Shown: piece after piece, positions 1 through 55,538 of the stretch | Layout: each line of letters begins with the position of its first letter | Position numbering within the stretch: the stretch's first letter is position 1 | NCBI GenBank assembly: GCA_009780015.1 | Contig: WRAW01000006.1 | Span: forward strand, 1 to 55,538 | Origin: Defluviitaleaceae bacterium | GTDB lineage: Bacteria > Bacillota > Clostridia > Lachnospirales > WRAA01 | Direction: 5' to 3' | Length of the DNA stretch: 55,538 nt | Notes under the pieces: model-generated | What the model was told of the DNA's origin: nothing | Seen by the model: the letters and a program-made list of their open reading frames with translations, nothing else | Database searches by the model: none | Program-made: the position numbers and the translations under genes

Positions 1-77
1 ACGCGGCGTCGCCGCTTCCTAGATTGGCAAAAAATCGCCTCTTCTAGCCATCATTTCGGATATTGACCACAGGTTCT
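1..77. repeat. Dispersed palindromic element, copy 1 (left side cut by window edge)
   Basis: The segment reads into the conserved right half of the element: a GGCaAAAAATCGCC hairpin, the CTTCTAGCC box, a TTTCGG.TATTGA box and the terminal ACAGGTTCT. It matches the right ends of the copies ending at 6240 and 12266 almost base for base. The left half lies outside the window. Confidence 0.85.
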
Positions 78-331: not shown

Positions 332-1867
332 ATGAACGCCGTATTGATAGACGGAAAGAGCCTGAATCTTGAGGATGTCGTCAAGGTAGCCAGGCATGGA
401 TGCAGGGTGGAATTGACGGAGGGGGCAATGGCCTCGGTGAGGAAGTCCCGCGAATACGTTGACCGCCTTGTGCGTGAGGGCAGGGTGGTGTACGGCATTA
501 CCACAGGCTTTGGCGAGTTCAGCAAGGTGAGCATCGCTAACGAGCAGACGGAGCTGCTGCAGAAAAACTTGATTGTAAGCCACGCATGCGGTATCGGCAG
601 GCATCTGCCGGAAGACAGCGTGCGGGCGCTTATGCTGCTTAGGATAAACGCGCTGTCGCAGGGATTTTCGGGGATACGCCTGGAAACCGTGCAGGCGCTG
701 ATTGATATGCTAAATACCGGCGTCGTCCCGGCCGTACCGGAAAAGGGATCGCTTGGGGCGTCGGGGGATCTCGCGCCTTTGTCGCACATGGTTTTGCCGC
801 TGATGGGCCTGGGTGAAGCGTACATCGGAGGGGAATTGATGCCGGGGGCGAAGGCTCTTGAGCGCGCCGGGCTGACGCCCGTTGTCCTTACATCCAAGGA
901 AGGCTTGGCGCTTATCAACGGGACTCAGGTAATGACCGGGATAGGCGCGCTGACTGTGTACGACGCGCTGAACGTGCTGAAGCTTTTCGATATCGCGGCG
1001 GCGCTGGTGGCCGAAGCGCAAAACGGCGTTACCGACGCGTATATTTCCGACATACACGAGATCAGGCCGCATCAGGGTCAGCTTGACACGGCTTCCAATA
1101 TGCTCAGGCTGCTGGAGGGCAGCGAGCGAACTACGCGCTCCGGCCAAGTCCGCGTACAGGACGCTTACAGCCTCCGCTGCGTGCCTCAGATACACGGGGC
1201 CAGCAAGGACGCCGTGCGCTACGTACACGGCAAGGTCGCGGTCGAGATGAATTCTGTTACCGATAATCCAATAATACTAGCGGACAAGGACATGGCCATT
1301 TCAGGTGGTAATTTCCACGGACAGCCGGTAGCCCTAAGCTTTGACTTTTTAGGCATAGCTTTGGCAGAGCTCGCAAACGTATCCGAAAGACGGATCGAGC
1401 GGCTCGTAAACCCGGCACTCAGTGGGTTACCGGCTTTTTTGACCAGACAGGGCGGGCTTCACTCGGGCTTTATGATTGCCCAGTATTCCGCCGCCGCCCT
1501 TGTTTCCGAAAACAAGGTGCTGGCGCACCCCGCCAGCGTAGATTCCATCCCGTCCTCAGCCGGGCAAGAGGACCATGTCAGCATGGGAACCATCGCAGCC
1601 AGAAAGGCTCGGGAAATCTACTTCAACACCAGCCGCGTCCTTGCGATCGAGCTGGTTGCGGCTGCACAGGCCATCGATCTGAACGAAAAGTACCAGGGCA
1701 GGAAGCTTGGAAAGGGAACCCAGGCGGCGTATGATACGATCCGTTCCGTTACGGATACCGTCGTCAATGACAGGGAACTTTACCTGGACTTCGAGAAGGT
1801 CGCTGCGCTTGTCGACTCGAACAGGATTGTCGAGGCGGTAGAAGCAGTTGTGGGAGAGCTTGCATAG
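332..1867 (+). CDS. hutH: Histidine ammonia-lyase
   Basis: The enzyme deaminates L-histidine to trans-urocanate and ammonia, the first step of histidine breakdown in the cytoplasm. The 511-residue length is normal for the family. The Ala-Ser-Gly triad that cyclises to the MIO cofactor is visible at residues 143-145 inside GSLGASGDLAPLSH, and the active-site tyrosine is Y54 in the VYGITTGFG motif. The ATG has a GGGAGG ribosome site six bases upstream. A perfect promoter lies about 90 bp upstream. No hutU, hutI or hutG is nearby; the next gene is a transporter. The stop codon TAG overlaps the first bases of a palindromic element. Confidence 0.97.
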   Translation: MNAVLIDGKSLNLEDVVKVARHGCRVELTEGAMASVRKSREYVDRLVREGRVVYGITTGFGEFSKVSIANEQTELLQKNLIVSHACGIGRHLPEDSVRALMLLRINALSQGFSGIRLETVQALIDMLNTGVVPAVPEKGSLGASGDLAPLSHMVLPLMGLGEAYIGGELMPGAKALERAGLTPVVLTSKEGLALINGTQVMTGIGALTVYDALNVLKLFDIAAALVAEAQNGVTDAYISDIHEIRPHQGQLDTASNMLRLLEGSERTTRSGQVRVQDAYSLRCVPQIHGASKDAVRYVHGKVAVEMNSVTDNPIILADKDMAISGGNFHGQPVALSFDFLGIALAELANVSERRIERLVNPALSGLPAFLTRQGGLHSGFMIAQYSAAALVSENKVLAHPASVDSIPSSAGQEDHVSMGTIAARKAREIYFNTSRVLAIELVAAAQAIDLNEKYQGRKLGKGTQAAYDTIRSVTDTVVNDRELYLDFEKVAALVDSNRIVEAVEAVVGELA

Positions 1868-2040
1868 TGTTCCATCCGGCTTAAAACCGTAGTATCTTTG
1901 CGGTCAATTTTCTACTATGTGTCGTCAGCGGGCACGCGTCCACCCCACGAAGCCAAAGATGGGCTTTGCGGGGGTCGCTTCCTGGCCTGGCGAAAAATTT
2001 CCGCGTAAGTCTACTCTGCTTTTAAACCGGATGAAACACT
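1866..2040. repeat. Dispersed palindromic element, copy 2 (AGTGTT-ended subtype)
   Basis: The ends AGTGTTCCATCCGGCTTAAA and, in reverse complement, AGTGTTTCATCCGGTTTAAA form an inverted repeat. The interior has the family's CCCCACGAAGCC...GGGCTTTGCGGGG hairpin and a GGCGAAAAAT box. The element starts inside the hutH stop codon and ends a few bases before the ribosome site of the transporter gene, so it fills the intercistronic spacer. Confidence 0.85.
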
Positions 2041-5957: not shown

Positions 5958-5987
5958 GCGGATCACTCCTTATTGGGGTTAGGTTTT

Positions 5988-6240
5988 AGAACCTGCATTC
6001 AATGACGCTCAACGCCGTCTAGAAGGTCAATTTTCCGCCACAGTCCACCCCATAAAGCCAAAACCGGGCTTTATGGGGACCCCGGGTCGTCAGTGGCTCC
6101 TAGCGTACCACTGCGGGTACGCTCAGTCCACCCCACGAAGCCAAAACCGGGCTTCGCGGGGACCCCGGGCGTCGCCACTTCCTAGATTGGCGAAAAATCG
6201 CCGCTTCTAGCCGACATTTCGGTTATTGAATACAGGTTCT
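5988..6240. repeat. Dispersed palindromic element, copy 3 (complete)
   Basis: Begins AGAACCTGCATTCAATGACG and ends with the complement of AGAACCTGTATTCAATAACC. Complementarity continues inward through the CTAGAAG boxes for nearly 50 bp. The interior holds a CCCCATAAAGCC/GGGCTTTATGGGG hairpin, a GCGTACC/GGGTACGC hairpin, a CCCCACGAAGCC/GGGCTTCGCGGGG hairpin and a GGCGA/TCGCC hairpin. It spans exactly from the flavoprotein stop codon to just before the next gene's ribosome site. Confidence 0.9.
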
Positions 6241-6809
6241 TATGATGCGGGTCTTTCGCTTAGTTTCGCGGCAAGTTCTATGACTTCACGCCGGACGGCT
6301 TCGTCTTCGTAGACTGGAAGGGTGTCGGTTTTCCAGGCTATGACGGTTCCAAGCAATTCGGCGTTGTTGAGTTTTAGGAGCATTTTGGAGGAGGCCAGAG
6401 CCGCTTCGGGGCCGTACTTGCTGGGGTCGAAGCCGCCAAGGTTCAGAATTATTGCGCCGTGTTTGGGTTTTAGCGATACGCTTTCGCGGCGGATATTGCG
6501 CGCCGCGAAGATCAGTTGAAAGCGGCTGAGGATGTTGAGCATGGGCCCGGGGAGGGCGGCGAAGTATATGGGCGCGGATATGACAATATTGTCAAAGGTG
6601 TTCATAGCGTCGTAAACGATGTCCATGTCGTCGATGATACTGCATCCGAATGTATGTGTGCAGTACTTGCAGTCAACGCACGGCGAAAGGTTTGCGCTAA
6701 AAGAACTCAGCGTTGTGACATCGCCGGACATGTGCTGTTTGAACAGGTTTTCGAGAAAGGCGGTCTGACCCGTGGGGTTGGGCGCGCCGGAGATTAGAAG
6801 GGTTTTCAT
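6240..6809 (-). CDS. Flavodoxin-fold NAD(P)H/FMN reductase of the iron-sulfur flavoprotein type
   Basis: About 189 residues. The N-terminus, MKTLLISGAPNPTGQT, is the FMN phosphate loop of the NADPH-dependent FMN reductase family. A cysteine motif C-x2-C-x2-C-x5-C (around residues 45-56) precedes SIIDDMD, as in iron-sulfur flavoproteins and related COG0655 proteins, so a [4Fe-4S] cluster is possible. The role is probably electron transfer or redox and xenobiotic reduction. The ATG at 6809 has AAGGAG eight bases upstream; the longer frame to 6875 would run into the promoter. The stop codon's last base is the first base of a palindromic element. Confidence 0.8.
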   Translation of the reverse strand: MKTLLISGAPNPTGQTAFLENLFKQHMSGDVTTLSSFSANLSPCVDCKYCTHTFGCSIIDDMDIVYDAMNTFDNIVISAPIYFAALPGPMLNILSRFQLIFAARNIRRESVSLKPKHGAIILNLGGFDPSKYGPEAALASSKMLLKLNNAELLGTVIAWKTDTLPVYEDEAVRREVIELAAKLSERPAS

Positions 6810-7097: not shown

Positions 7098-10000
7098 TTA
7101 TTGTCTTGGCACGGCTGCGCTCATGATATAGTTGAACGCCCAATGCCAATCGGGTACATCTACGAAGCGCTGCTGTTGCAGTGGCTGCATACCTCTGCCG
7201 TCCGCACGCGCCAGCAAGGCTACGGCTTCGGCGCGGGAGAGTGGATTGTTGGGGCCGAAGGTGCCGTTGGGATAGCCGTTGATGATACCGCGATCCGCCG
7301 CTAGGCCAATGTAGTTAGAAGCCCAGTGGCCTTGCGTGTCGATGAATTGCGCCGATCCGAAGCCGGTTAGGCCGTAAATGCGGCTTAGTACTGCGGCTGC
7401 TTCGGCACGGCTCAGTTGACCGCCGGGTCTGAAGGTACCGTCTGGATAGCCGTTCATGAAGCCTCTGGCGGATACGAAGCTGATCGCCTGGTTAAACGGC
7501 GAGTTTGCCGTATCGCTGAACTGTACTCCGGGACCCGGAGGAACTCCGGAGCTGGCCTGCAGGTTGAATATTGCCTGAGCAAGCTCACCGCGCGATACCG
7601 CTGCGTCGGGAGCGAAGGTGAACCCGGCGCGCCCTGGGAAGAATTCCCCGGCAGCCAAGTTTGTGCCTCCGACCTGAGTTCCGGGAGGAACAGTTCCGGC
7701 CTGCGTGAGCATTATCAGAATACTTGCGTCGCCGGTTACGACATACGTCCAGTTCGGCGGCCAGACGGTGTATCCGGCCGGAATTGTGAAGTTGGACGGA
7801 TTAACCGTGGAGCCTATTGTGGATGTTATCTGAGCAGTGCCGCGTTCTTGACCGGCGAGAGTTCTGAACTGTACGTTAATGGTCGCCTGCGCGCCGGGAG
7901 TTGTAACCTGAGATGTGGTCGTAAGAGTTACGACATTGCCGTAATATACTCTGGTCGGCGTTCTGAAGAATGCCGATACATAGTAGGTGTTGTTGGCCGA
8001 AAGGTTGGAAAGCGTCATGGTGTAAGTGCCGAAGTTGTTGCTTTGTTCGCGCACTACGTTGTTGGAAAGCGTAGGCATTCTGTTGGTGGAAGACCATACG
8101 AACCCGCGTTCGAGGATTCTGTTGTTCCAGTCATTCCAGCCTGAACCCCATACACGGTTTGGAATGTGAGCGGATAGGGTCGCGCTGCTTGACGTAACTT
8201 CCGTTGGTTGGTTGGTTGTGATGAAGTTACGGTCGCGGTTGGCGCCGGCCCATGTGCCGTAGCCCCACCATCCCCAATGTCCGGGATGACCTGGGCCCCA
8301 TCCTTGACCCCACTGATTCCACTGGTTCCAGTTTCCGATCCAGTTTACGTTTGCGCGGAACGATTGAGTCGGGCCGAACATGCGAGTGCTGCCGGTAGAC
8401 TGTACAAACGCGCGAATATAATAAACCTGGCCGGACTGAGTGCTGAAATTAATTGTTCCTGAGTGGTGGTTCTGGGTAAAGCTTCTGGCGCCGCTGAAAT
8501 TCGGATTGCGGGCAACTTCTACGCCGACCCAGTTGATGGGCCCGTGTGTGCCTGCAGTCCAGTGCGGCCAATGGCCGCCATGCCAGCCGCTTGGTATGTT
8601 CGGCCAGCCCCAGGCGTGGACACGTACGGTTGTGTTGTGCATATGCAAAGCAACAGGTTCAACGTGTATCCATGGGTGAACGTTCCAGTTCGGGAACCCT
8701 CCCCCGGTTGCACCAAGGGTTGTGAACGAACCGACAAAGAATAACTGGTCAACGCCATTGATGTTGAGAATAAGGTGAACGCTGAACGTTGTGCTTGAAT
8801 GAAGGCCGCTTATTGAGCCGATGTAACTGATTGCGCCGGCGCCGGTTACAAGTGGATCAAAACCGACATAGAGCGCGTGGGACAGTCCCCGTCCACGAAT
8901 ATCAGGAGATCCCTGCTCGAACACTTCACACAGACAAATTTCTTCTCCGGTAACGGGGCAAGGACCTTCGCTCTGTTGTCCGGGAGTTGGTGTCGGGGTC
9001 GGTGTTGGGAACGGAGCCGGAACTGATGGGGCCGGAATTACCGGAGCCGCGGTAGGCATCGGAACCGGAACAACCGGAGCCGGAGCGGCTTCTGGCATAA
9101 CAGGAGCCGGAGCGGCTTCTGGCACAACAGGAGCCGGAGCGGCTTCTGGCACAACAGGAGCCGGAGCGGCTTCTGGCACAACAGGAGCCGGGATTACCGG
9201 AACAACCGGAGCCGGAGCGGCTTCAGGCATAACAGGAGCCGGAGCGGCTTCTGGCACAATAGGAGCCGGGATTACCGGAACAACCGGAGCCGGAGCGGCT
9301 TCAGGCATAACGGGAGCCGGCTGCGGATTCATCCACGCCGGAGGCGCTGCCGAAATTGGCTCTGGTGTATACGCCGGTTGAACAGCTTCAGGCATGGAAT
9401 CGGAGTATGCCGACTGATTCATCCACGCTGGGACAGAAGCGCCGTGTAAGCCGTAACCGTTGATTCCATTAGCGCCGTTGAGGCCGTAACCGTTGATTCC
9501 ATTAGCGCCGTTGAGGCCGTAACCATTGATTCCGTTTTCACCGTTAAGGCCGTAACCGTTGGTTCCGTTTTCGCCGTTAAGGCCGTAACCGTTGGTTCCG
9601 TTTTCACCGTTAAGGCCGTAACCATTGGTTCCGTTTTCGCCGTTTTCGCCATTGTTGACGACGCAGTCGAGGCACTCGCAGTAGTCGGGGTGGCAAACAC
9701 AAATATCGGTGTCGTAGCAATCGCAGTTTGTGACGTAAGAACCGTTGTAGCCACCGTTAGAACCGCCATCGTAGCCACCGTTATAGCCGTAGCCATCATC
9801 AGGGTAGTAGCCGCCGCCGCCGGCGTCAACGTAATAGTCAACGATCAGTTCGTCAAATGAAACGGCCAGTCCGGCGGGTGAGGTTGACGTAACACTAGCT
9901 CCAATAGTTTGAGTGAAGCCAGGGCCGTCCACCCTGAAGCGCGGGTTCAAGACCGTTGCTCCGGCCGATGGAGTGATAGTTGCGGTAAATGTCGCTCCGC

Positions 10001-10151
10001 CGCTTGTTACGCTGGAAATGTTTGCTGCCGTGAGCGAGTTGGCTTGTACGGTGCTAAGAGGGGCGTTTGGGCTGAAAAATACAAAGCTCAGAAAAATCGA
10101 TGCTGCTGTTGTTGCGCTTATGGCTTTGTACAATTTGCTTTTATAATGCAT
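7098..10151 (-). CDS. Large S-layer-homology surface protein with low-complexity repeats
   Basis: A secreted protein of about 1017 residues. MHYKSKLYKAISATTAASIF opens a signal peptide ending near STVQA. Then come a Gly/Tyr-rich segment (111-140), a Cys cluster with seven Cys (143-163), six copies of an 11-residue NGENGTNGYGL-type repeat (about 168-236), Pro/Ala-rich PEAAPAP repeats (about 281-362), a His/Trp-rich middle, and a fibronectin-like domain around LSAHIPNRVW. Three SLH modules (about 828-994) plus the start of a fourth end the protein. SLH modules bind secondary cell-wall polymer, so it is probably displayed on the cell wall. The ATG at 10151 has AAAGGAGG five bases upstream; the frame further upstream has no such site. 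Confidence 0.9.
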   Translation of the reverse strand: MHYKSKLYKAISATTAASIFLSFVFFSPNAPLSTVQANSLTAANISSVTSGGATFTATITPSAGATVLNPRFRVDGPGFTQTIGASVTSTSPAGLAVSFDELIVDYYVDAGGGGYYPDDGYGYNGGYDGGSNGGYNGSYVTNCDCYDTDICVCHPDYCECLDCVVNNGENGENGTNGYGLNGENGTNGYGLNGENGTNGYGLNGENGINGYGLNGANGINGYGLNGANGINGYGLHGASVPAWMNQSAYSDSMPEAVQPAYTPEPISAAPPAWMNPQPAPVMPEAAPAPVVPVIPAPIVPEAAPAPVMPEAAPAPVVPVIPAPVVPEAAPAPVVPEAAPAPVVPEAAPAPVMPEAAPAPVVPVPMPTAAPVIPAPSVPAPFPTPTPTPTPGQQSEGPCPVTGEEICLCEVFEQGSPDIRGRGLSHALYVGFDPLVTGAGAISYIGSISGLHSSTTFSVHLILNINGVDQLFFVGSFTTLGATGGGFPNWNVHPWIHVEPVALHMHNTTVRVHAWGWPNIPSGWHGGHWPHWTAGTHGPINWVGVEVARNPNFSGARSFTQNHHSGTINFSTQSGQVYYIRAFVQSTGSTRMFGPTQSFRANVNWIGNWNQWNQWGQGWGPGHPGHWGWWGYGTWAGANRDRNFITTNQPTEVTSSSATLSAHIPNRVWGSGWNDWNNRILERGFVWSSTNRMPTLSNNVVREQSNNFGTYTMTLSNLSANNTYYVSAFFRTPTRVYYGNVVTLTTTSQVTTPGAQATINVQFRTLAGQERGTAQITSTIGSTVNPSNFTIPAGYTVWPPNWTYVVTGDASILIMLTQAGTVPPGTQVGGTNLAAGEFFPGRAGFTFAPDAAVSRGELAQAIFNLQASSGVPPGPGVQFSDTANSPFNQAISFVSARGFMNGYPDGTFRPGGQLSRAEAAAVLSRIYGLTGFGSAQFIDTQGHWASNYIGLAADRGIINGYPNGTFGPNNPLSRAEAVALLARADGRGMQPLQQQRFVDVPDWHWAFNYIMSAAVPRQ
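9066..9311 (-). repeat. In-frame 27-bp tandem repeats (PEAAPAPVV/M)
   Basis: Nearly identical 27-bp units encode PEAAPAPVV or PEAAPAPVM, interrupted by VIPAP variants. The high identity at DNA level suggests recent slippage or recombination and a flexible wall-spanning stalk. Confidence 0.85.
9438..9650 (-). repeat. In-frame 33-bp tandem repeats (NGENGTNGYGL)
   Basis: Six units of 33 bp encode an 11-residue Gly/Asn-rich repeat in which Gly often falls every third residue (GEN GTN GYG), a short collagen-like pattern. Units vary E/A and T/I. Copy-number change would keep the frame. Confidence 0.85.
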
Positions 10152-10221
10152 GTTAACCTCCTTTATAATTAGAGTGGTGTTGTTGAAAAGAAATAGATAG
10201 GCCCCAACCATAGCCTACTAC

Positions 10222-11738: not shown

Positions 11739-11941
11739 AGAACCTGTATTCATAGGATGGGAACGGCGTCTTAGCGGTCGATTTTCCGCCACAGTCCGCC
11801 CCATAAAGCCAAAACCGGGCTTTATGGGGGCCCCCGGATCGTCGGTTCCATCTTGCGTACCCTCTGTACGCGGCGTCACCTCATAGATTGGCGAAAAATC
11901 GCCTTGCTAATACGCCATTCCCACCTATGAATACAGGTTTT
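11739..11941. repeat. Dispersed palindromic element, copy 4
   Basis: The left end AGAACCTGTATTCATAGG and the reverse complement of the right end (AAAACCTGTATTCATAGG) pair with each other, a terminal sequence not shared with most other copies. The interior has the CCCCATAAAGCC/GGGCTTTATGGGG hairpin, a GCGTACC/GTACGC hairpin and GGCGAAAAATCGCC. It lies 29 bp upstream of the protease start. Confidence 0.9.
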
Positions 11942-12011
11942 GAATATTGCCATTTCGTATAGTTTATATTCGGCGCACGAAATTTAGAACTGTTTTCTAT
12001 GTTTAAGCCTC

Positions 12012-12266
12012 AGAACCAGCGGTTAATAACACTCAACGCCATCTGGAAGGCCGAACTCCACCCCACGAAGCCAGAAGCAGGCTTCGTGGGGGCCCCGGTT
12101 TTCCACCACTCGTCGTCAGCGGATCCTTGCGTACCACTATGGGTACGCTCAGTCCACCCCACGAAGCCAAAACCGGGCTTCGCGGGGACCCTGGGCGTCG
12201 CCGCTTCCTAGATTGGCGAAAAATCGCCACTTCCAGCCAGCATTTCGGTTATTGACCGCTGGTTCT
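12012..12266. repeat. Dispersed palindromic element, copy 5 (overlaps pcp 3' end)
   Basis: The ends AGAACCAGCGGTTAATAAC and, in reverse complement, AGAACCAGCGGTCAATAACC pair. The interior carries two CCCCACGAAGCC-type hairpins and a GCGTACC/GGGTACGC hairpin. The right 59 bp are translated as the last codons of pcp. Only 70 bp separate it from copy 4; I see no gene between them. Confidence 0.9.
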
Positions 12267-12873
12267 CAGATATGCAAGCCAGTACGCAAGCCTGCAAGCC
12301 GTCGGTGATCTGCTGCATGGAAAGCGACGGCTTGTCCGGTTTGTCGAGGATTTGCTCAGTGGCATAGGGGACGTGTACGAAGCCGCCGCGGATTCCCTCA
12401 AATTCGGGTACGGTGGCCAGCATGTGCAGCAGGCCGTACATGACGTGATTGCATACATATGTGCCGGCGGTGTTGGATACGGAAGACGGTATTTTGACGG
12501 CGCGCACCGCGTCAACCATCGCCCTTATGGGAACTGTGGCGAAGTAGGCGTTTTGGCCGTCTTCAAAGATAGGAAGGTCTATGGGCTGGCTGCCGGAGTT
12601 GTCGGGAATTCGCGCGTCGTCGATGTTTATGGCTACGCGCTCGGGTGTGACGGCGAAGCGTCCTCCTGCTTGTCCGATACACAGCACCACTCCGGGGCTG
12701 TGCGCGCGGATCGCGTCCTCCAACACGCTGAGAGATTCGTAGAACACACAAGGCAGCTCCAGTTTGACGATATGACAGTCTCCGATGATATCGGGCAGAA
12801 GCCGTACGGCTTCATAGGACGGATTGACGCTTTCGCCGCCGAACGGCGCAAAGCCCGTAATCAATATGCGCAT
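12208..12873 (-). CDS. pcp: Pyroglutamyl-peptidase I
   Basis: A cytoplasmic cysteine peptidase that removes N-terminal pyroglutamate from peptides. About 221 residues with the start at MRILITGFAPFGG, the usual family N-terminus; the frame extends 29 codons further upstream but those codons are hydrophobic, unlike the family, and cross the -10 side of the rpoB promoter region. The catalytic Glu lies in TPERVAIN, the Cys in NTAGTYVCN and the His in FVHVPYATEQ. The last 20 residues or so, from SENQRSITEML, are encoded by a palindromic element and replace the native C-terminus. Confidence 0.93.
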   Translation of the reverse strand: MRILITGFAPFGGESVNPSYEAVRLLPDIIGDCHIVKLELPCVFYESLSVLEDAIRAHSPGVVLCIGQAGGRFAVTPERVAINIDDARIPDNSGSQPIDLPIFEDGQNAYFATVPIRAMVDAVRAVKIPSSVSNTAGTYVCNHVMYGLLHMLATVPEFEGIRGGFVHVPYATEQILDKPDKPSLSMQQITDGLQACVLACISENQRSITEMLAGSGDFSPI

Positions 12874-22510: not shown

Positions 22511-24334
22511 ATGAGACTGGAAAATTTACTGACGCGGGTCGAAAAGCCCGCAAGATACATCGGCAACGAGATAAATATGGTTGTGAAACCGCCGCAAAGC
22601 GTAGAGATACGCTTTGCGTTTGCGTTCCCCGATGTTTACGAGGTCGGGATGAGCCACATGGGGCTGTGGCTGTTGTACTTCATGCTGAACAGGCGGGAGG
22701 ATACGTATTGTGAAAGGGTGTTCGCGCCGTGGCTGGACATGGAGGAGCTGATGCGAAGCGAGGGCGTGCCTCTGTGGGCGCTCGAGACAGGGGACGATAT
22801 TGCCGGCTTCGACTTCCTTGGCTTTACGCTGCAATACGAGATGAGCTACAGCAATGTGGTTAATATGCTTGATTTGGCGGGGATGCCGATACTGGCGAGT
22901 GAGCGCGCGGACGACGGGCCGGTTGTGATAGCGGGGGGGCCGTGCGCGTACAATCCCGAGCCGCTGGCGGACATTGTCGACGTGTTCTACATCGGCGAGG
23001 GCGAGGCAAGCTTGAACATTGTGTTGGACAAATATCGCGAACACAAGAGAAGCGGGGGCGGCAAGCGCGAGTTCCTGGAGTCAATACTCTACGTGGAAGG
23101 TGTGTACGTGCCGCGTTTCTATGACGTCGGCTACAATAGCGACGGAACGCTTCGCGCGTTTGAGCCGAACCATCCCGGTGCGCCGAGGACGGTGATCAAG
23201 ACGGCTGTGCGCGACCTCGAGGCGCTGGAGTATCCGGCGGTACAGCTTGTGCCGCTGATCGAGACGGTGCATAACCGCGTGATGCTGGAGTTGTTCCGGG
23301 GGTGTGTTCGGGGCTGCCGCTTCTGTCAGGCGGGCTTTGTCAGCCGTCCGGTGCGGGAGAACAGCCCGGCCAAGCTGCTTTCCCAGGCCGAAGGATTGAT
23401 AAGTGCGACGGGTCATGAGGAAATATCCCTGTTGTCCCTGTCTACCAGTGACTACACGGGTTTTGCTGAGCTTACGTCCGGCCTTGTGGATGCCTGTACG
23501 CCCAAGAACGTCAACCTGTCCCTGCCGTCGCTCAGGGTGGACGCTTTTCCTCTGGAACTGATGCGCAAGGTGCAGGCTGTGCGCAAGTCTTCGCTGACAT
23601 TCGCGCCGGAGGCGGGGAGCCAGCGCATGAGGGACGTAATCAACAAGGGTCTGACCGAGGAAGAGATCCTGACGGGAATCAGGACGGCTTTCGGCGGCGG
23701 ATGGCAGCGTCTGAAGCTGTACTTCATGATCGGGCTTCCGGGAGAAACGGACGAGGATGTACTGGAAATAGCGCGGCTGTGCGAGAAAATTGCGGACGCG
23801 TATTACGAGAACAACAAGAAGGTGCGCCCGCTTAGCTTGATTGTGAGCGTATCGGGATTTGTGCCCAAGCCTTTTACTCCATTCCAATGGGAAGGGCAGA
23901 CCGGCCGCGTCGAAATCGCGCGCAAGCAGGAACTGCTGCGCAAGGCCATCCGTAAGCGCCAAATAACGCTGAACTACCACGATTCGCTGCTTTCCTGCGT
24001 GGAGGGGGCGATCTCCCGGGGGGGAAGGAGAGTTGGCGCGGCCATAATAAGGGCGTGGCAGTTGGGCGCGCGCTTTGACGGCTGGAGCGATCATTTCAAG
24101 TACGAGACGTGGCGGCAGGCGTTTGAGGAAGCGGGGCTTGACATGGACGCGGGCGAAAAAGGACGCGCCTCGGACGAGCTTCTCCCGTGGGGTCACATCG
24201 ACGTAGGTGTGAGCCGCGCGTACCTTCTGCGCGAACGCGACAACGCCTTTGCAGGCATAGTCACGCCGAACTGCCGTGAAGGGTGTTCCGGCTGCGGCGC
24301 TGCGGCATTCGGGGGAGGTGTGTGTCACGGCTGA
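22511..24334 (+). CDS. B12-binding radical SAM protein, TIGR03960 family
   Basis: A 607-residue cytoplasmic protein. The N-terminal half resembles a cobalamin-binding domain, and the radical SAM cluster motif C265-x3-C269-x2-C272 lies in RGCVRGCRFCQAGF. The LTFAPEAGSQRMRDVINKG and FMIGLPGETDEDV stretches are typical of the core barrel. This family is nearly always paired with the DUF2344 protein that follows here and often sits beside rng-rplU-rpmA, which suggests an RNA or ribosome-related modification; the reaction is not established. The ATG has GGTGGGGA upstream. The C-terminus has a CREGCSGCG cluster. Confidence 0.93.
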   Translation: MRLENLLTRVEKPARYIGNEINMVVKPPQSVEIRFAFAFPDVYEVGMSHMGLWLLYFMLNRREDTYCERVFAPWLDMEELMRSEGVPLWALETGDDIAGFDFLGFTLQYEMSYSNVVNMLDLAGMPILASERADDGPVVIAGGPCAYNPEPLADIVDVFYIGEGEASLNIVLDKYREHKRSGGGKREFLESILYVEGVYVPRFYDVGYNSDGTLRAFEPNHPGAPRTVIKTAVRDLEALEYPAVQLVPLIETVHNRVMLELFRGCVRGCRFCQAGFVSRPVRENSPAKLLSQAEGLISATGHEEISLLSLSTSDYTGFAELTSGLVDACTPKNVNLSLPSLRVDAFPLELMRKVQAVRKSSLTFAPEAGSQRMRDVINKGLTEEEILTGIRTAFGGGWQRLKLYFMIGLPGETDEDVLEIARLCEKIADAYYENNKKVRPLSLIVSVSGFVPKPFTPFQWEGQTGRVEIARKQELLRKAIRKRQITLNYHDSLLSCVEGAISRGGRRVGAAIIRAWQLGARFDGWSDHFKYETWRQAFEEAGLDMDAGEKGRASDELLPWGHIDVGVSRAYLLRERDNAFAGIVTPNCREGCSGCGAAAFGGGVCHG

Positions 24335-25001
24335 TTTTGTGGACTATCGCTTGGAGTATTCTAAACTTGAGATGATGAAGTACATCGGGCATATCGACCT
24401 GATGAAGCTGTTTCACAAGCTGTTCAGGATGTCGGGGCTGCCGATAGTTTTCTCTCAGGGCTTTAACCCGCATCAGATATTCACTATTGCTCACCCCTTG
24501 TCCCTTGGAATGGAGGGGCAGAGCGAGCTTGCCGATTTTCGATTGAGCGCCGAAGTGGACGCCGCTGAAATAGTGGACGCGCTAAATTCGTGTGCGCCGG
24601 TCGGCTTGTGTGTCAGCCGCGCGCGTACGCTTGTCAAGGGCGAAAAAAACTGCGCCGCGCTTGTGGCGGCGGCGGATTACAGGGTGTGCTGCGGAGCGCA
24701 CGCGGGCTTGTCCGTCGCTGTTCTCGCCATTTTGTCGCGCGACGAAATCGTGACCGTCAAGCGAACTAAGTCGGGCGCGTCTCAGTCGGACATACGCAAG
24801 GATATAATCGGTCTGACCGAACACGGGCCGGGCACGCTCGATATGCGTATTTCCGCGGGCAGCGCCGCGAATCTCAAGCCCCAGCTCGTCATGAGCGAAG
24901 TATTCCGCGAACTGGGCGCGCAGTACGACGAAAACACGCTGAATTACACGCGGATACAGCTTCTGCGCCGCCAAGGCGACGGCTTCGAGCGGCTGGATTA
25001 A
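24318..25001 (+). CDS. DUF2344 / TIGR03936 family protein, partner of the radical SAM protein
   Basis: About 228 residues. YSKLEMMKYIGHIDLMKLFHK and LPIVFSQGFNPHQ are hallmark motifs of the family, which is always found beside TIGR03960 radical SAM proteins and is fused to them in some species. The start is uncertain: GTG at 24318 is inside the GGGGGAGGTG ribosome-like sequence, and other in-frame candidates are GTG 24339 and TTG 24351. In every case it overlaps or abuts the radical SAM stop codon, so translation is probably coupled. The TAA stop's last base is the first base of a palindromic element. Confidence 0.88.
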   Translation: MCVTADFVDYRLEYSKLEMMKYIGHIDLMKLFHKLFRMSGLPIVFSQGFNPHQIFTIAHPLSLGMEGQSELADFRLSAEVDAAEIVDALNSCAPVGLCVSRARTLVKGEKNCAALVAAADYRVCCGAHAGLSVAVLAILSRDEIVTVKRTKSGASQSDIRKDIIGLTEHGPGTLDMRISAGSAANLKPQLVMSEVFRELGAQYDENTLNYTRIQLLRRQGDGFERLD

Positions 25002-25137
25002 GAACCAGCGGTCAATAACCGAAATGCTGGCTAGAAGTGGCGGAAAACCGGGGACTGTCCCATGAAGCCCGGTTTTGGCTTCGCAGGGTGGAGTTCGACC
25101 TTCTAGACGGCGTTGAGCGTTATTGATCGCTGGTTCT
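25001..25137. repeat. Dispersed palindromic element, copy 6 (short, complete)
   Basis: 137 bp. The ends AGAACCAGCGGTCAATAAC and, in reverse complement, AGAACCAGCGATCAATAAC match at 18 of 19 positions; CTAGAAG boxes pair further in, and a central GAAGCCCGGTTTTGGCTTC hairpin forms the tip. Its arms resemble those of copy 5 in reverse orientation. Confidence 0.9.
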
Positions 25138-25172
25138 TAGCTTTGTATATCAAATGAAACACGTCGAGCAAC

Positions 25173-25201: not shown

Positions 25202-25287
25202 CCGCTCAATCACACCGTATAGGGCGGTTATTTGGGCTTGCACACCCTCACGTAACAACATCACTAACAGAGGGGAGGTGAGGCCCC

Positions 25288-25404
25288 ATGTCGGCGTATG
25301 AAACTGCTATGCTTATCCTGGTAAGCTTGTCAATGGCTATTTCGCTTGGTAATTTTGCTGTGAGGCATGTCCTGAAATTTTTGGACGACAGGTACAAAAA
25401 ATAG
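25288..25404 (+). CDS. Type I toxin peptide, Hol-Tox/TxpA-BsrE-like, locus 1
   Basis: 38 residues: MSAYETAMLIL..., one membrane helix (about 6-30), then a charged tail LDDRYKK. The M(S/T)xYE start, single helix and short basic tail are the signature of the putative holin-like toxin family, whose known members (TxpA, BsrE and clostridial relatives) insert in the membrane and are silenced by antisense RNA. GGGGAGG lies nine bases upstream of the ATG. A convergent antisense RNA gene overlaps its 3' end. It differs at seven of 38 positions from the two identical copies at 30815 and 31246. Confidence 0.85.
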   Translation: MSAYETAMLILVSLSMAISLGNFAVRHVLKFLDDRYKK

Positions 25405-25519
25405 CCGCTCCTGAATTCGCGTTCGGAATTGCGGCTACTTTTCAGAGTAGTGCGCAAGCCTTAACCGTCTTAATACGATGTGGCCAGAGGGCGCCTGCAA
25501 ACGCCCTCGTTTTTATTGT
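25396..25519 (-). ncRNA. Antisense antitoxin RNA, locus 1
   Basis: Driven by the minus-strand promoter at 25526-25554 and ending at a hairpin made by GTAGCCGC and GCGGCTA arms followed by six T (25396-25440). It is complementary to the toxin mRNA 3' untranslated region and last codons, about 120 nt of overlap, as in txpA/RatA and bsrG/SR4. End positions are inferred from promoter and terminator. Confidence 0.8.
25487..25515 (+). terminator. Terminator of toxin mRNA, locus 1
   Basis: GAGGGCG (25487-25493) pairs with CGCCCTC (25502-25508), followed by GTTTTTATTG. The same hairpin occurs at the other two loci. Confidence 0.9.
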
Positions 25520-25525
25520 ATCCTT

Positions 25526-25554
25526 ATTATATCACGCTTATGATCTTATTGCAA
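25526..25554 (-). promoter_or_regulatory. Promoter of antisense RNA, locus 1
   Basis: On the minus strand, TTGCAA (25554-25549) and TATAAT (25531-25526) are spaced 17 bp. Both boxes are identical to those of the two right-hand antisense promoters. Confidence 0.88.
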
Positions 25555-25604
25555 GTATTTTTAAAAATACTTGAGCCTGGTGAGCAAAAATTTTGTTATA
25601 GATA

Positions 25605-30613: not shown

Positions 30614-30668
30614 TTTGCGACATTAATATCTTCCTTAATATCTTCCTTGCCGTACTTAGAAAAAAGTA

Positions 30669-30697
30669 TTGCAAAAAAGTCATAGGTGCGGTATAAT
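30669..30697 (+). promoter_or_regulatory. Promoter of antisense RNA, locus 2
   Basis: TTGCAA (30669-30674), 17 bp, TATAAT (30692-30697), followed by the conserved AAGGATACAATAAAAACGAG start region. Confidence 0.88.
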
Positions 30698-30703
30698 AAG
30701 GAT

Positions 30704-30823
30704 ACAATAAAAACGAGGGCGTCTGCTAACGCCCTCTGGCCACATCGTATTTAGACGGCTAGACTTGCACGACCTGTAAAAATAGCCGCGCTTCCTAACC
30801 AGAATCAGGAGCGGCTATTTTTT
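30704..30823 (+). ncRNA. Antisense antitoxin RNA, locus 2
   Basis: Runs from the promoter at 30669-30697 to the terminator formed by AATAGCCGC and GCGGCTATT arms plus six T at about 30823. Its 5' part is the complement of the toxin terminator hairpin (GAGGGCGT/ACGCCCTC) and its 3' end covers the toxin stop codon. Confidence 0.8.
30706..30736 (-). terminator. Terminator of toxin mRNA, locus 2
   Basis: On the minus strand, GAGGGCGT and ACGCCCTC arms (30715-30736) are followed by GTTTTTATTG. Confidence 0.88.
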
Positions 30824-30931
30824 ATACCTGTCGTCCAGAAATTTCAGGACATGCTTTACTGCAAATTTACCGATTGACATAGCCAATGGCAAGCTTACGA
30901 GAACAAGCATAGCAGTTTCATATGCCGACAT
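30815..30931 (-). CDS. Type I toxin peptide, Hol-Tox/TxpA-BsrE-like, locus 2
   Basis: 38 residues, MSAYETAMLVLVSLPLAMSI..., one membrane helix and the same LDDRYKK tail as locus 1. GGGGAGG lies nine bases upstream of the ATG. The stop codon sits in the stem of the antisense RNA terminator. The protein is identical to the locus 3 copy although the DNA differs at silent sites, so both are under protein-level constraint or very recent. Confidence 0.87.
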   Translation of the reverse strand: MSAYETAMLVLVSLPLAMSIGKFAVKHVLKFLDDRYKK

Positions 30932-31017
30932 GGGGCCTCACCTCCCCTCTGTTAGTGATGTTGTTACGTGAGGGTGTGCAAGCCAAATATACCGCCCTAG
31001 TACGATGTGGTTGACAA

Positions 31018-31046
31018 ATTATAACGCGGCTGTTATGGAAATACAA
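31018..31046 (-). promoter_or_regulatory. Promoter of type I toxin, locus 2
   Basis: On the minus strand, TTGTAT (31046-31041), 17 bp, TATAAT (31023-31018). The CCTCAC and GTGAGG pair that can mask the ribosome site is conserved in the leader. Confidence 0.85.
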
Positions 31047-31100
31047 GCTGTTCATATATCACAGCGTCGATATCTTCCCTGTCGCATTTAGAAAAAAGTA

Positions 31101-31129
31101 TTGCAAAAAAGTCATAGGTGCGGTATAAT
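31101..31129 (+). promoter_or_regulatory. Promoter of antisense RNA, locus 3
   Basis: TTGCAA (31101-31106), 17 bp, TATAAT (31124-31129); identical to locus 2. Confidence 0.88.
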
Positions 31130-31135
31130 AAGGAT

Positions 31136-31254
31136 ACAATAAAAACGAGGGCGCGACAACGCCCTCTGGCCATACCGTATTTAGACGGTTGGACTTGCAC
31201 AGCTAATAAAAATAGCCGCGTTTCCCAACTACTAATCAGGAGCGGCTATTTTTT
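31136..31254 (+). ncRNA. Antisense antitoxin RNA, locus 3
   Basis: From the promoter at 31101-31129 to the AATAGCCGC/GCGGCTATT terminator near 31254. The hairpin near its 5' end has a shorter loop than in locus 2, so the two antisense RNAs are not identical. Confidence 0.8.
31139..31166 (-). terminator. Terminator of toxin mRNA, locus 3
   Basis: On the minus strand, GAGGGCG and CGCCCTC arms (31147-31166) are followed by GTTTTTATTG. Confidence 0.88.
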
Positions 31255-31362
31255 ATACCTGTCGTCCAGAAATTTCAGGACATGCTTTACTGCAAATTTA
31301 CCGATTGACATAGCCAGCGGCAAGCTTACGAGAACAAGCATAGCAGTTTCATATGCCGACAT
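31246..31362 (-). CDS. Type I toxin peptide, Hol-Tox/TxpA-BsrE-like, locus 3
   Basis: 38 residues, the same protein as locus 2. GGGGAGG upstream of the ATG, one membrane helix, basic tail. It is the right-hand unit of the tandem duplication. Confidence 0.87.
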   Translation of the reverse strand: MSAYETAMLVLVSLPLAMSIGKFAVKHVLKFLDDRYKK

Positions 31363-31448
31363 GGGGCTTCACCTCCCCTCTGTTAGCGATGTTGTTACGT
31401 GAGGGTGTGCAAGCCAAATATACCGCCCTAGTACGGTGTGGTTGACAA

Positions 31449-31477
31449 ATTATAGCATGGCTGTTATGGAAATACAA
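31449..31477 (-). promoter_or_regulatory. Promoter of type I toxin, locus 3
   Basis: On the minus strand, TTGTAT (31477-31472), 17 bp, TATAAT (31454-31449). Confidence 0.85.
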
Positions 31478-31498
31478 GCTGCTTATGCTGTAAAATGC

Positions 31499-41682: not shown

Positions 41683-42609
41683 ATGAAGCCGACAATAGTT
41701 GTGATGGCAGCCGGGATGGGAAGCCGCTTCGGAGGGCTGAAACAGCTTTCTCCCGTGGGCCCAAGCGGCGAGAACCTGATGGACTATTCGGTGTACGACG
41801 CTTTTGCGGCTGGGTTCGGCAAAGTTGTATTTGTTGTCAAGAGGGAGACGGAGCAAGCTTTTCGCGACGCGTACGGCAGCAAGCTGGAGAGGGTCGCGGA
41901 CGTTCGATATGTCTTCCAGGAGATTGAGAATGTTCCGAACGGCGTAAGCGTTCCTCCCGGACGCGCAAAGCCCTGGGGTACGGCGCACGCCGTGTTGTCC
42001 GCCAAGGGCGCGGTGACTGAGCCGTTCGCGGTTATAAACGCCGACGATTTCTACGGCGCGGGCTCATTCCGGGCGCTTCGTGACTTTTTGGCCGCTCCGC
42101 CGGAGCGTGCGCGTGAGAAGCATCGGTACGCAATGATGGGTTTTGCCCTTTCAAATACGCTGAGCGACGGCGGCAGCGTTTCGCGCGGTATATGCCGCCG
42201 CGACGCGGACGGCCGCCTGATAGAAATAATCGAGCGTACTAGGGTGGAGCGCCGGGATGGTGCGCCGTGCTACTCCGAAGACGGCCAAAGCTTTGTCCCA
42301 ATTGACGAAGACGCCGTGGTATCCATGAACATGTGGGGATTCAATCCAAGCATATTTAATGAAATCGAACGCAAGTTCGCCGAATTTTTTGAACGAAATC
42401 AAGCGCGGCTTGACACCGCCGAGATGTATTTGCCGACAGTGGTCGACGCGCTCATAAAGGAAGGAAGGGCGGACGTCAGCGTGCTGGACACTGCGGATCG
42501 CTGGTGGGGTCTTACCAACCCGGGCGACCTTCAGGCGGTGAGAGAGGCTATCGCCGGAATGGTGGCCGACGGAAAGTACCCCGAAGACTTGTGGGGGATT
42601 GTGAGCTAA
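41683..42609 (+). CDS. Sugar-phosphate nucleotidyltransferase family protein
   Basis: 308 residues. The N-terminal MAAGMGSRFGGLKQL loop is the nucleotide-binding signature of the GT-A-like NTP transferase family, and INADDFYG supplies the metal-binding aspartates. PWGTAHAV is the conserved base-contact segment. It would activate a sugar phosphate to an NDP-sugar, but the sugar and nucleotide cannot be told from sequence; the asymmetry with GalU/RmlA lengths fits an uncharacterised subgroup. GGAGAGGTG lies upstream of the ATG. TAAGAATCTG at its end resembles the start of a decayed palindromic element. Confidence 0.82.
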   Translation: MKPTIVVMAAGMGSRFGGLKQLSPVGPSGENLMDYSVYDAFAAGFGKVVFVVKRETEQAFRDAYGSKLERVADVRYVFQEIENVPNGVSVPPGRAKPWGTAHAVLSAKGAVTEPFAVINADDFYGAGSFRALRDFLAAPPERAREKHRYAMMGFALSNTLSDGGSVSRGICRRDADGRLIEIIERTRVERRDGAPCYSEDGQSFVPIDEDAVVSMNMWGFNPSIFNEIERKFAEFFERNQARLDTAEMYLPTVVDALIKEGRADVSVLDTADRWWGLTNPGDLQAVREAIAGMVADGKYPEDLWGIVS

Positions 42610-42629
42610 GAATCTGCTCCGAGTCCATA

Positions 42630-42891
42630 AGAACCTGTTTACTATCTTTTCACCATTGACTTGGCGGCCAGACTCCACCCCACGAAGCCAAAACCTGGCT
42701 TCGTGGAGACTCTGGTTTTCCACCCTTTGTCGTCGTCAATTCCTTGCGTACCAACTCAGGTACGCGGCGTCATCTCCTCCGCCTACGCTGGCGCTTCGGA
42801 TGCTAAACGTGTACCACCGGCACACAGCATCCTAGAATGGCGAAAAACTGGACTCGCCAATCCAACGGCAAAAAGATAGTAAACAGGTTCT
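42630..42891. repeat. Dispersed palindromic element, copy 7
   Basis: The ends AGAACCTGTTTACTATCTTTT and their exact complement at the right (about 21 bp) form the most perfect terminal pair in the window, with a sequence unlike other copies. The interior has a CCCCACGAAGCC/GGCTTCGTGG hairpin, a GCGTACC/GGTACGC hairpin, a TACGCTGGCGCTTCGGATGC segment shared with copy 9 and a CGTGTACCACCGGCACACAG segment. Confidence 0.9.
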
Positions 42892-54895: not shown

Positions 54896-55336
54896 ATGAT
54901 AAAAAAATATGCCACGATCAACCGTGACGAGGCAATTGAGTTATTCATGGGGGTGTTCTCAGCCGAGCCGTTTTGTTATACATGGCTCAGGCGTGAGGCC
55001 GTCGAGCGTTATTTCACGGACTTGGCCAACACCCCCGCGGCGCTGTCATTTCTATACTACAATAACAAAGGCCTGTTGACAGGCCTTTGTTTTGGCGCTA
55101 TGAACGACTATTTTATCCACAAGCTGTATGATATCAAGGAGTTTGCCGTAAGAAAGGATGCGCAAGGCAAGGGCGAGGGCAGACGGATGCTAGAGGAAAT
55201 ATCAGGCTGCCTGAAAAGTGAAGGCGTAGCCGCGGTCACCCTTTCAACGCAGCGTGAGATCCCGGCATATGAATTCTATCTCAAGAACGGATTTGTAGCG
55301 TCGAAGTCGAGTGTGACTCTCAGTAAGAAGATTTAG
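54896..55336 (+). CDS. GNAT-family N-acetyltransferase
   Basis: 146 residues. The acetyl-CoA-binding loop is seen in EFAVRKDAQGKGEGRRML (pattern Q-x2-G-x-G/A), and the family C-terminal strand and helix in IPAYEFYLKNGFVASKS. The acceptor is unknown. It begins eight bp after the giant surface gene, with only a weak ribosome site, so translational coupling is likely. A perfect 12-bp inverted repeat lies within its coding region. The TAG stop overlaps the first two bases of a palindromic element. Confidence 0.85.
   Translation: MIKKYATINRDEAIELFMGVFSAEPFCYTWLRREAVERYFTDLANTPAALSFLYYNNKGLLTGLCFGAMNDYFIHKLYDIKEFAVRKDAQGKGEGRRMLEEISGCLKSEGVAAVTLSTQREIPAYEFYLKNGFVASKSSVTLSKKI
55064..55093 (+). terminator. 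Terminator-like hairpin inside the GNAT gene
   Basis: AACAAAGGCCTG (55064-55075) pairs perfectly with CAGGCCTTTGTT (55080-55091) around a TTGA loop, followed by two more T. It lies at codons 57-66 and could cause partial termination or slow translation. Confidence 0.5.
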
Positions 55337-55538
55337 AACCTGTGTTCATAGGATGGGAATGCCGTCTTGTCGGTCGAATTCCACCCCACGAAGCCAAAAT
55401 TGGGCTTCGTGGGGACGGTTTTCCGCCACAGTCCACCCCATAAAGCCAAAACCGGGCTTTATGGGGACCCCGGGTCGTCGGTTCCTCCGCCTACGCTGGC
55501 GCTTCGGATGCTAAACGTGTGCCACCGGCACACAGCAT
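55335..55538. repeat. Dispersed palindromic element, copy 9 (right side cut by window edge)
   Basis: Starts AGAACCTGTGTTCATAGG inside the GNAT stop codon. The interior shows a CCCCACGAAGCC/GGGCTTCGTGGGG hairpin, then CCCCATAAAGCC/GGGCTTTATGGGG, then the TACGCTGGCGCTTCGGATGC and CCACCGGCACACAGCAT segments shared with copy 7. Confidence 0.88.

Follow-up and report, generated by a model that had tools for sequence, protein, structure and literature searches.

The palindromic elements that abut stop codons in the 55,538-nucleotide stretch analysed here (the window) are non-autonomous miniature transposons (MITEs) of several families, and that they overlap stop codons follows largely from which targets they choose and which insertions survive; it does not speak for a special role at the ends of messages. 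The main family, F1, is, judging from its ends, best assigned as a MITE to the IS1031 subgroup (IS5 family), since a full-length insertion sequence (IS) from a relative and the published ISLrh have matching ends and 3-bp duplications. Target chemistry and the loss of genic insertions account for most of the stop overlaps, and a modest preference for co-directional spacers remains unexplained.

The window is a complete contig (C6) of a draft genome (G000) of 2.77 Mb in 183 contigs, which is 84% complete and broken at repeats; the analysis set comprised 59 contigs (1.87 Mb). The only comparison genome of the same genus, G001 (the congener), shows 73% nucleotide identity and was represented by ~0.63 Mb and selected further loci. 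Genes were taken from a simple home-made caller (1810 genes, 87% coding), which missed DUF2344, added by hand. For the radical SAM protein encoded at 22511-24334 the nearest named relative is the Defluviitaleaceae bacterium MAG Lab288P1bin14 (80% amino-acid identity), presumably of termite gut origin. Since 48 of the 118 contig ends of the draft lie in element sequence, copies are undercounted; a whole-genome pattern search suggested several hundred element ends.

The F1 family and the copies in the window

F1 is present in 88 copies with paired inverted ends in the 1.87 Mb, with the termini GA(A/G)CCTG...CAGG(T/C)TC. The copies are mostly 124-263 bp long (range 65-412) and fall into length groups around 164, 207-216, 257-263, and 346-348 bp, as though modules had been added. 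They are thus short, numerous, without a transposase ORF, and bounded by terminal inverted repeats and a target duplication, as expected of MITEs. Identical 3-bp flanks are found in 66 copies (TAA in 37, TTA in 26, TCA in 2, and TGA in 1), while 11 copies have TAA on one side and TTA on the other. A 2-bp TA duplication is ruled out for F1, as the third base agrees in the 66 copies and TCA and TGA pairs exist. The target is therefore TNA and not TA, as the TCA/TCA duplication (12010-12012 and 12266-12268) of the minus-strand window copy at 12013..12265, away from any stop, also indicates. The target choice at T-A-(A/G) that had been proposed earlier is essentially right, with TAA or TTA in 63 of the 66 duplications. 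In the TAA orientation the preceding base is C, A or T and the following base G or A, never T, which gives the context (C/A/T)TAA(G/A). Of all TAA/TTA sites 75% are coding (34508 vs 11535 non-coding), and F1 copies are nearly all intergenic.

The four stop overlaps described in the earlier note are real. The stops of hutH (332..1867, plus strand; TAG at 1865-1867), the flavoprotein gene (6240..6809, minus strand; TAA at 6242-6240), DUF2344 (24276..25001, plus strand; TAA at 24999-25001), and GNAT (54896..55336, plus strand; TAG at 55334-55336) adjoin or share the ends of palindromes. What was taken for one element is two families: three of the copies are F1 (5989-6239, 25002-25136, and 55336 to the contig end), whereas the hutH element begins TA|GTGTTCCATCCGG and has a 2-bp TA duplication in place of the 3-bp TNA of F1. 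That the stops share bases with the elements holds for the TAG stops, which consist of the duplicated TA and the first G of the element; the TAA stops are the target duplication itself.

The F1 copy at the DUF2344 stop (25002..25136, plus strand, 135 bp) has the stop as the left copy of its target duplication and TTA on the right (25137-25139), so its flanks differ in the middle base, a minority pattern. It folds into a single long hairpin (z = -7). The copy at the flavoprotein gene (5989..6239, minus strand) has two inner hairpins and the duplication TTA (5986-5988 and 6240-6242). In the GNAT copy (55336..55538, plus strand), preceded by TTA (55333-55335), the right part is lost at the contig end. 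The hutH element (1867..2039, plus strand) lies between TA duplications at 1865-1866 and 2040-2041, and shares an inner hairpin with F1. As claimed previously, it reaches up to the next ribosome site, ending at 2039 just before GGAGG, and the flavoprotein-gene element likewise stops shortly before such a site. A putative fifth, decayed case, TAAGAATCTG (42607-42616) at the nucleotidyltransferase stop (42607-42609), contains no element end; an intact plus-strand F1 copy with TAA/TAA flanks lies 21 bp past that stop (42631..42890). The remaining F1 sequences in the window are a degenerate copy of no assigned strand, lacking a clean target duplication (11740..11940), and a minus-strand right end, truncated where the contig begins and followed by TTA (1..76).

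Related insertion sequences, other families, and known repeats

In a relative of the same order, the locus L255 (1477-2317) holds an 841-bp IS5-family element with ends identical to those of F1 and the same target duplication (TAA|GAACCTGTCTACAATAA...|TAA). A second IS there (L246, 1170-2005) is flanked by TAA/TTA and has an end, TTATTGACCGCTGGTTC, nearly identical to that of the DUF2344 copy. The transposase halves of both match the DUF4096, DDE_Tnp_1, and IS5_3 models; the L255 ORFs match PF13340, PF01609, and NF033580, with the gene split in two ORFs and NF033580 below the full-protein cut-off. ISLrh, of the IS1031 subgroup, has the ends GAACCTGTCTAGTATCT, a TNA target, 3-bp repeats, and two overlapping ORFs (PMC12016507). 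F1 resembles it in the GAACCTGT... termini and the 3-bp TNA duplication, and the F1 copy at 42631 starts with GAACCTGTTTACTATCT, identical at 15 of 17 positions to the ISLrh end. The 840-860 bp partner of F1 in the relative has two ORFs, as ISLrh does. Unlike ISLrh, F1 is only 65-412 bp long, lacks a transposase gene, and carries nested hairpin modules inside.

Within the own genome, 84% complete and broken at repeats, only degraded pieces of IS1031-type transposases were found and no intact one; at C25:17993-18768 such a degraded transposase is accompanied by a decayed F1-like end. An end-based search of the 1.87 Mb for a full-length F1-type IS returned only composites and one chance pair on contig C55. 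For the DDE_Tnp_1_2 family there was no match in the own genome, and the search with DDE_3 (IS630-type) gave two matches, on the small contigs C147 and C151. These transposases are possible partners of the TA-duplicating families, including those whose ends start with T.

Every family found duplicates either TA or TNA. Besides F1 there are at least four more types of end, each with a TA duplication: GACCT-, GGGYGTGT-, GTGTTCC- (the hutH copy), and the TAGTG/TAGCTG/TAGTCA type. The preferred target of the GGGYGTGT and GTGTT families is C-TA-G, a further agreement with the target choice proposed earlier. The families are mosaics, since the inner hairpin modules GAAGCC...GGCTTC and GCGTACC...GGTACGC are common to F1 and others. 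The inner hairpin CCCCACGAAGCC...GGCTTCGTGGGG, also common to MITE families with different ends, is found in the window at 1938-1973, 6043-6161, 11794-12187, 25053-25092, 42673-42708, and 55379-55466. T-leading MITEs that duplicate TA, with the ends TATAGTCA, TATAGTGA, or TATAGCTG, are found in G000 on contigs C12, C24, C25, C27, C49, and others.

Among known repeats, RUP of Streptococcus pneumoniae is, like F1, a structured MITE whose ends match a resident IS, but it is 107 bp long with IS630-type ends, whereas those of F1 are IS5-type with a 3-bp duplication (PMC3049150). ERIC/RU-1 and NEMIS/Correia are, like the elements described here, MITEs in the form of long intergenic palindromes, and may be co-transcribed (PMC2229807, PMC2759123). 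They duplicate TA, as do the GGGYGTGT and GTGTT families, with no sequence relationship known. F1 differs from ERIC, NEMIS, and RUP in its 3-bp TNA duplication, the 2-bp TA being found here only in the other families. In one RU-1 case a stop codon was removed (PMC2759123), whereas the elements here restore stops. BOX elements are similarly modular, structured, and of variable length (67-637 bp) (PMC3049150), with other ends and modules; here the inner modules are common to families with different termini. REP/BIME sequences (20-40 bp palindromes, RAYT-linked) were rejected as an assignment for F1, as size, termini, and duplications differ.

Placement of the elements relative to stop codons

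The placement test covers the 66 F1 copies with clean duplications, so that the DUF2344 copy, with its TAA/TTA flanks, stands outside it. As the null, all non-coding TAA on both strands outside elements were used, weighted by the flanking-base preference. Exact overlap with a TAA stop is observed in 12 of the 66 copies vs 5.0 expected (p=0.0037), and with stricter gene sets the figures are 12 vs 4.2 (p=0.0008) and 11 vs 2.8 (p=0.0001). Overlap with TAG through the TTA orientation occurs in 4 copies vs 2.5 expected. The genome-wide excess at stops predicted in the earlier note is thus present, but the stop is not special within the 0-30 nt zone, because the excess is just as large at positions 1-30 nt past stops (14 vs 5.4 expected). 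The share of exact stops in this zone is 12 of 26, with 48% under the null, so that with the 3'-proximal zone counted the prediction is borne out only in part. In respect to target choice within the spacers actually used, there are 16 overlaps vs 12.4 expected (P=0.086). The sample of the congener shows stop overlap in 4 of ~9 F1 copies.

The first base of the element matters in the families that duplicate TA. In G-leading families (TA+G = TAG) 8 of 25 copies overlap stops vs 1.7 expected (p=0.0002), whereas in T-leading families, whose insertion would change the stop to TAT, none of 13 does so (Fisher p=0.034 between the two); both sets are small and their limits were drawn by eye from the end motifs, with the hutH copy placed by hand in the G-leading one. 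This contrast is what the survival of harmless insertions predicts. Given spacer and target context, the GGGYGTGT and GTGTT families show 6 stop overlaps vs 3.7 expected (P=0.039), and G-leading families may have a small true preference for stops.

Elements are depleted in divergent spacers and far from genes. In co-directional spacers there are 51 vs 37 expected (strict genes), while convergent spacers show no excess (7 vs 11). The F1 duplication in co-directional spacers reads TAA in the gene direction in 35 cases and TTA in 15, where about 19:17 is expected. Simple tolerance does not explain the last two observations, which leave room for an RNA-level effect that, by analogy, might resemble that of ERIC and NEMIS.

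The stops are older than the insertions, because the congener orthologs end at the same place and are mostly free of an element. Stops lying elsewhere in relatives, named in the earlier note as counter-evidence, were not observed: for 13 genes with a stop-overlapping element, the orthologs (at least 49% identity) end within -4 to +3 residues. In 11 of the 13, including hutH, GNAT, and DUF2344, there is no element at the stop. What looked like an element of a second family at the DUF2344 stop of the congener was rejected on inspection. After the ortholog of the gene at C22:30872 comes a short GGGCGTGTTT...AACACTCCC palindrome, which may or may not be an element, and the ortholog of the gene at C48:1262 has an F1 copy of another subfamily at its stop. 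In this pair, G001 C15:12437-12648 and G000 C48:1262-1425, different F1 subfamilies stand at the stops of orthologous genes, four residues apart, by either independent insertions or replacement.

Origin of the stop overlaps

Very probably, the elements are ordinary MITEs with stop-compatible targets, moved in trans and sieved by loss from genes. F1, with its IS1031-subgroup ends, would most likely be mobilised in trans by a transposase of that subgroup, which would duplicate the 3-bp TNA target, here almost always TAA or TTA. Insertions into genes would be lost, presumably by purifying selection acting as a sieve, and those in spacers would remain; in short spacers the TAA stop of the upstream gene may often be among very few usable targets. 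Duplication of the target (TAA|GAACC...GGTTC|TAA) leaves the stop intact. The G-starting families that duplicate TA would be harmless too, as TAA or TAG becomes TAG, while the T-starting ones would destroy the stop, and they are absent from stops. Several observations sit less easily with this explanation: no intact IS1031-type transposase turned up in the incomplete own genome, the GGGYGTGT and GTGTT families are in slight excess at stops, TAA is favoured in the gene direction, convergent spacers show no enrichment although an insertion there ought to do no harm, and one congener ortholog carries the other F1 subfamily at its stop.

The earlier note had also considered that the elements act at message 3' ends, by termination, stabilisation or uncoupling. 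In such a reading, copies at stops would be kept because their long hairpin terminates, protects or cleaves the transcript and uncouples neighbouring genes. The strong fold (z about -7) and the excess in co-directional spacers agree with it, as do the analogues, co-transcribed mRNA stability being reportedly altered by ERIC and, as proposed, by NEMIS (PMC2229807), and the general clustering of stable stem-loops within 50 bp after stops (PMC1590033). But between 24950 and 25300, around the DUF2344 copy, the search for an intrinsic terminator found only one weak minus-strand 5-bp stem, at chance level, and no sense-strand U tract, and no Rfam family matched anywhere in the window. With the stop itself not favoured over the other positions of the 30-nt zone, no enrichment in convergent spacers, and most congener orthologs free of the element, the proposal gained no positive support and is unlikely. 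That several unrelated MITE families were recruited, their stop copies in co-directional spacers being kept for a message-end or uncoupling role, is quite improbable.

An active preference for stop codons, by the transposase or by a process coupled to translation or its termination, would agree with the exact F1 overlaps, those in the congener sample and in the TA|G families, and the orthologous gene hit by different subfamilies in two species. We consider it very unlikely, as the 30 nt past stops are equally enriched, the spacer-conditional test gives P=0.086, the GGGYGTGT and GTGTT families exceed their context-weighted expectation only slightly (6 vs 3.7), and the empty T-leading set points to survival rather than targeting. 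Insertions might in principle also have created the stops by truncating longer genes: TA+G from the element can make TAG of TAT or TAC codons, and every in-frame TA insertion of a G-leading family forms TAG. An in-frame TAA duplication, on the other hand, implies a pre-existing TAA stop, and the conserved ends of the 13 orthologs rule this origin out; the chance that it is correct is negligible.

The preferred explanation, trans-mobilised MITEs sieved by survival, needs only simple rules: an IS that targets a stop-codon word and duplicates it on insertion can enter the last codon of a gene harmlessly. Full-text searches, with subscription papers mostly outside their coverage, returned no earlier report of such a stop-overlap rule for IS1031-type MITEs. 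The contrast of G-leading and T-leading families (8/25 vs 0/13) is a small natural experiment on selection acting on the end sequences of mobile elements. For palindromes that abut stops, target-site bias should be subtracted before function is deduced.

Two other kinds of repeat were observed in the window. A small locus at 25220-25562, with an ORF at 25288 that we take to resemble holin-like toxin peptides, recurs as an inverted copy and further in tandem at 30638-31486 (minus strand; 84-96% alike). At 9040-9672, 27- and 33-bp tandem repeats lie within a long minus-strand gene (7098-10211).
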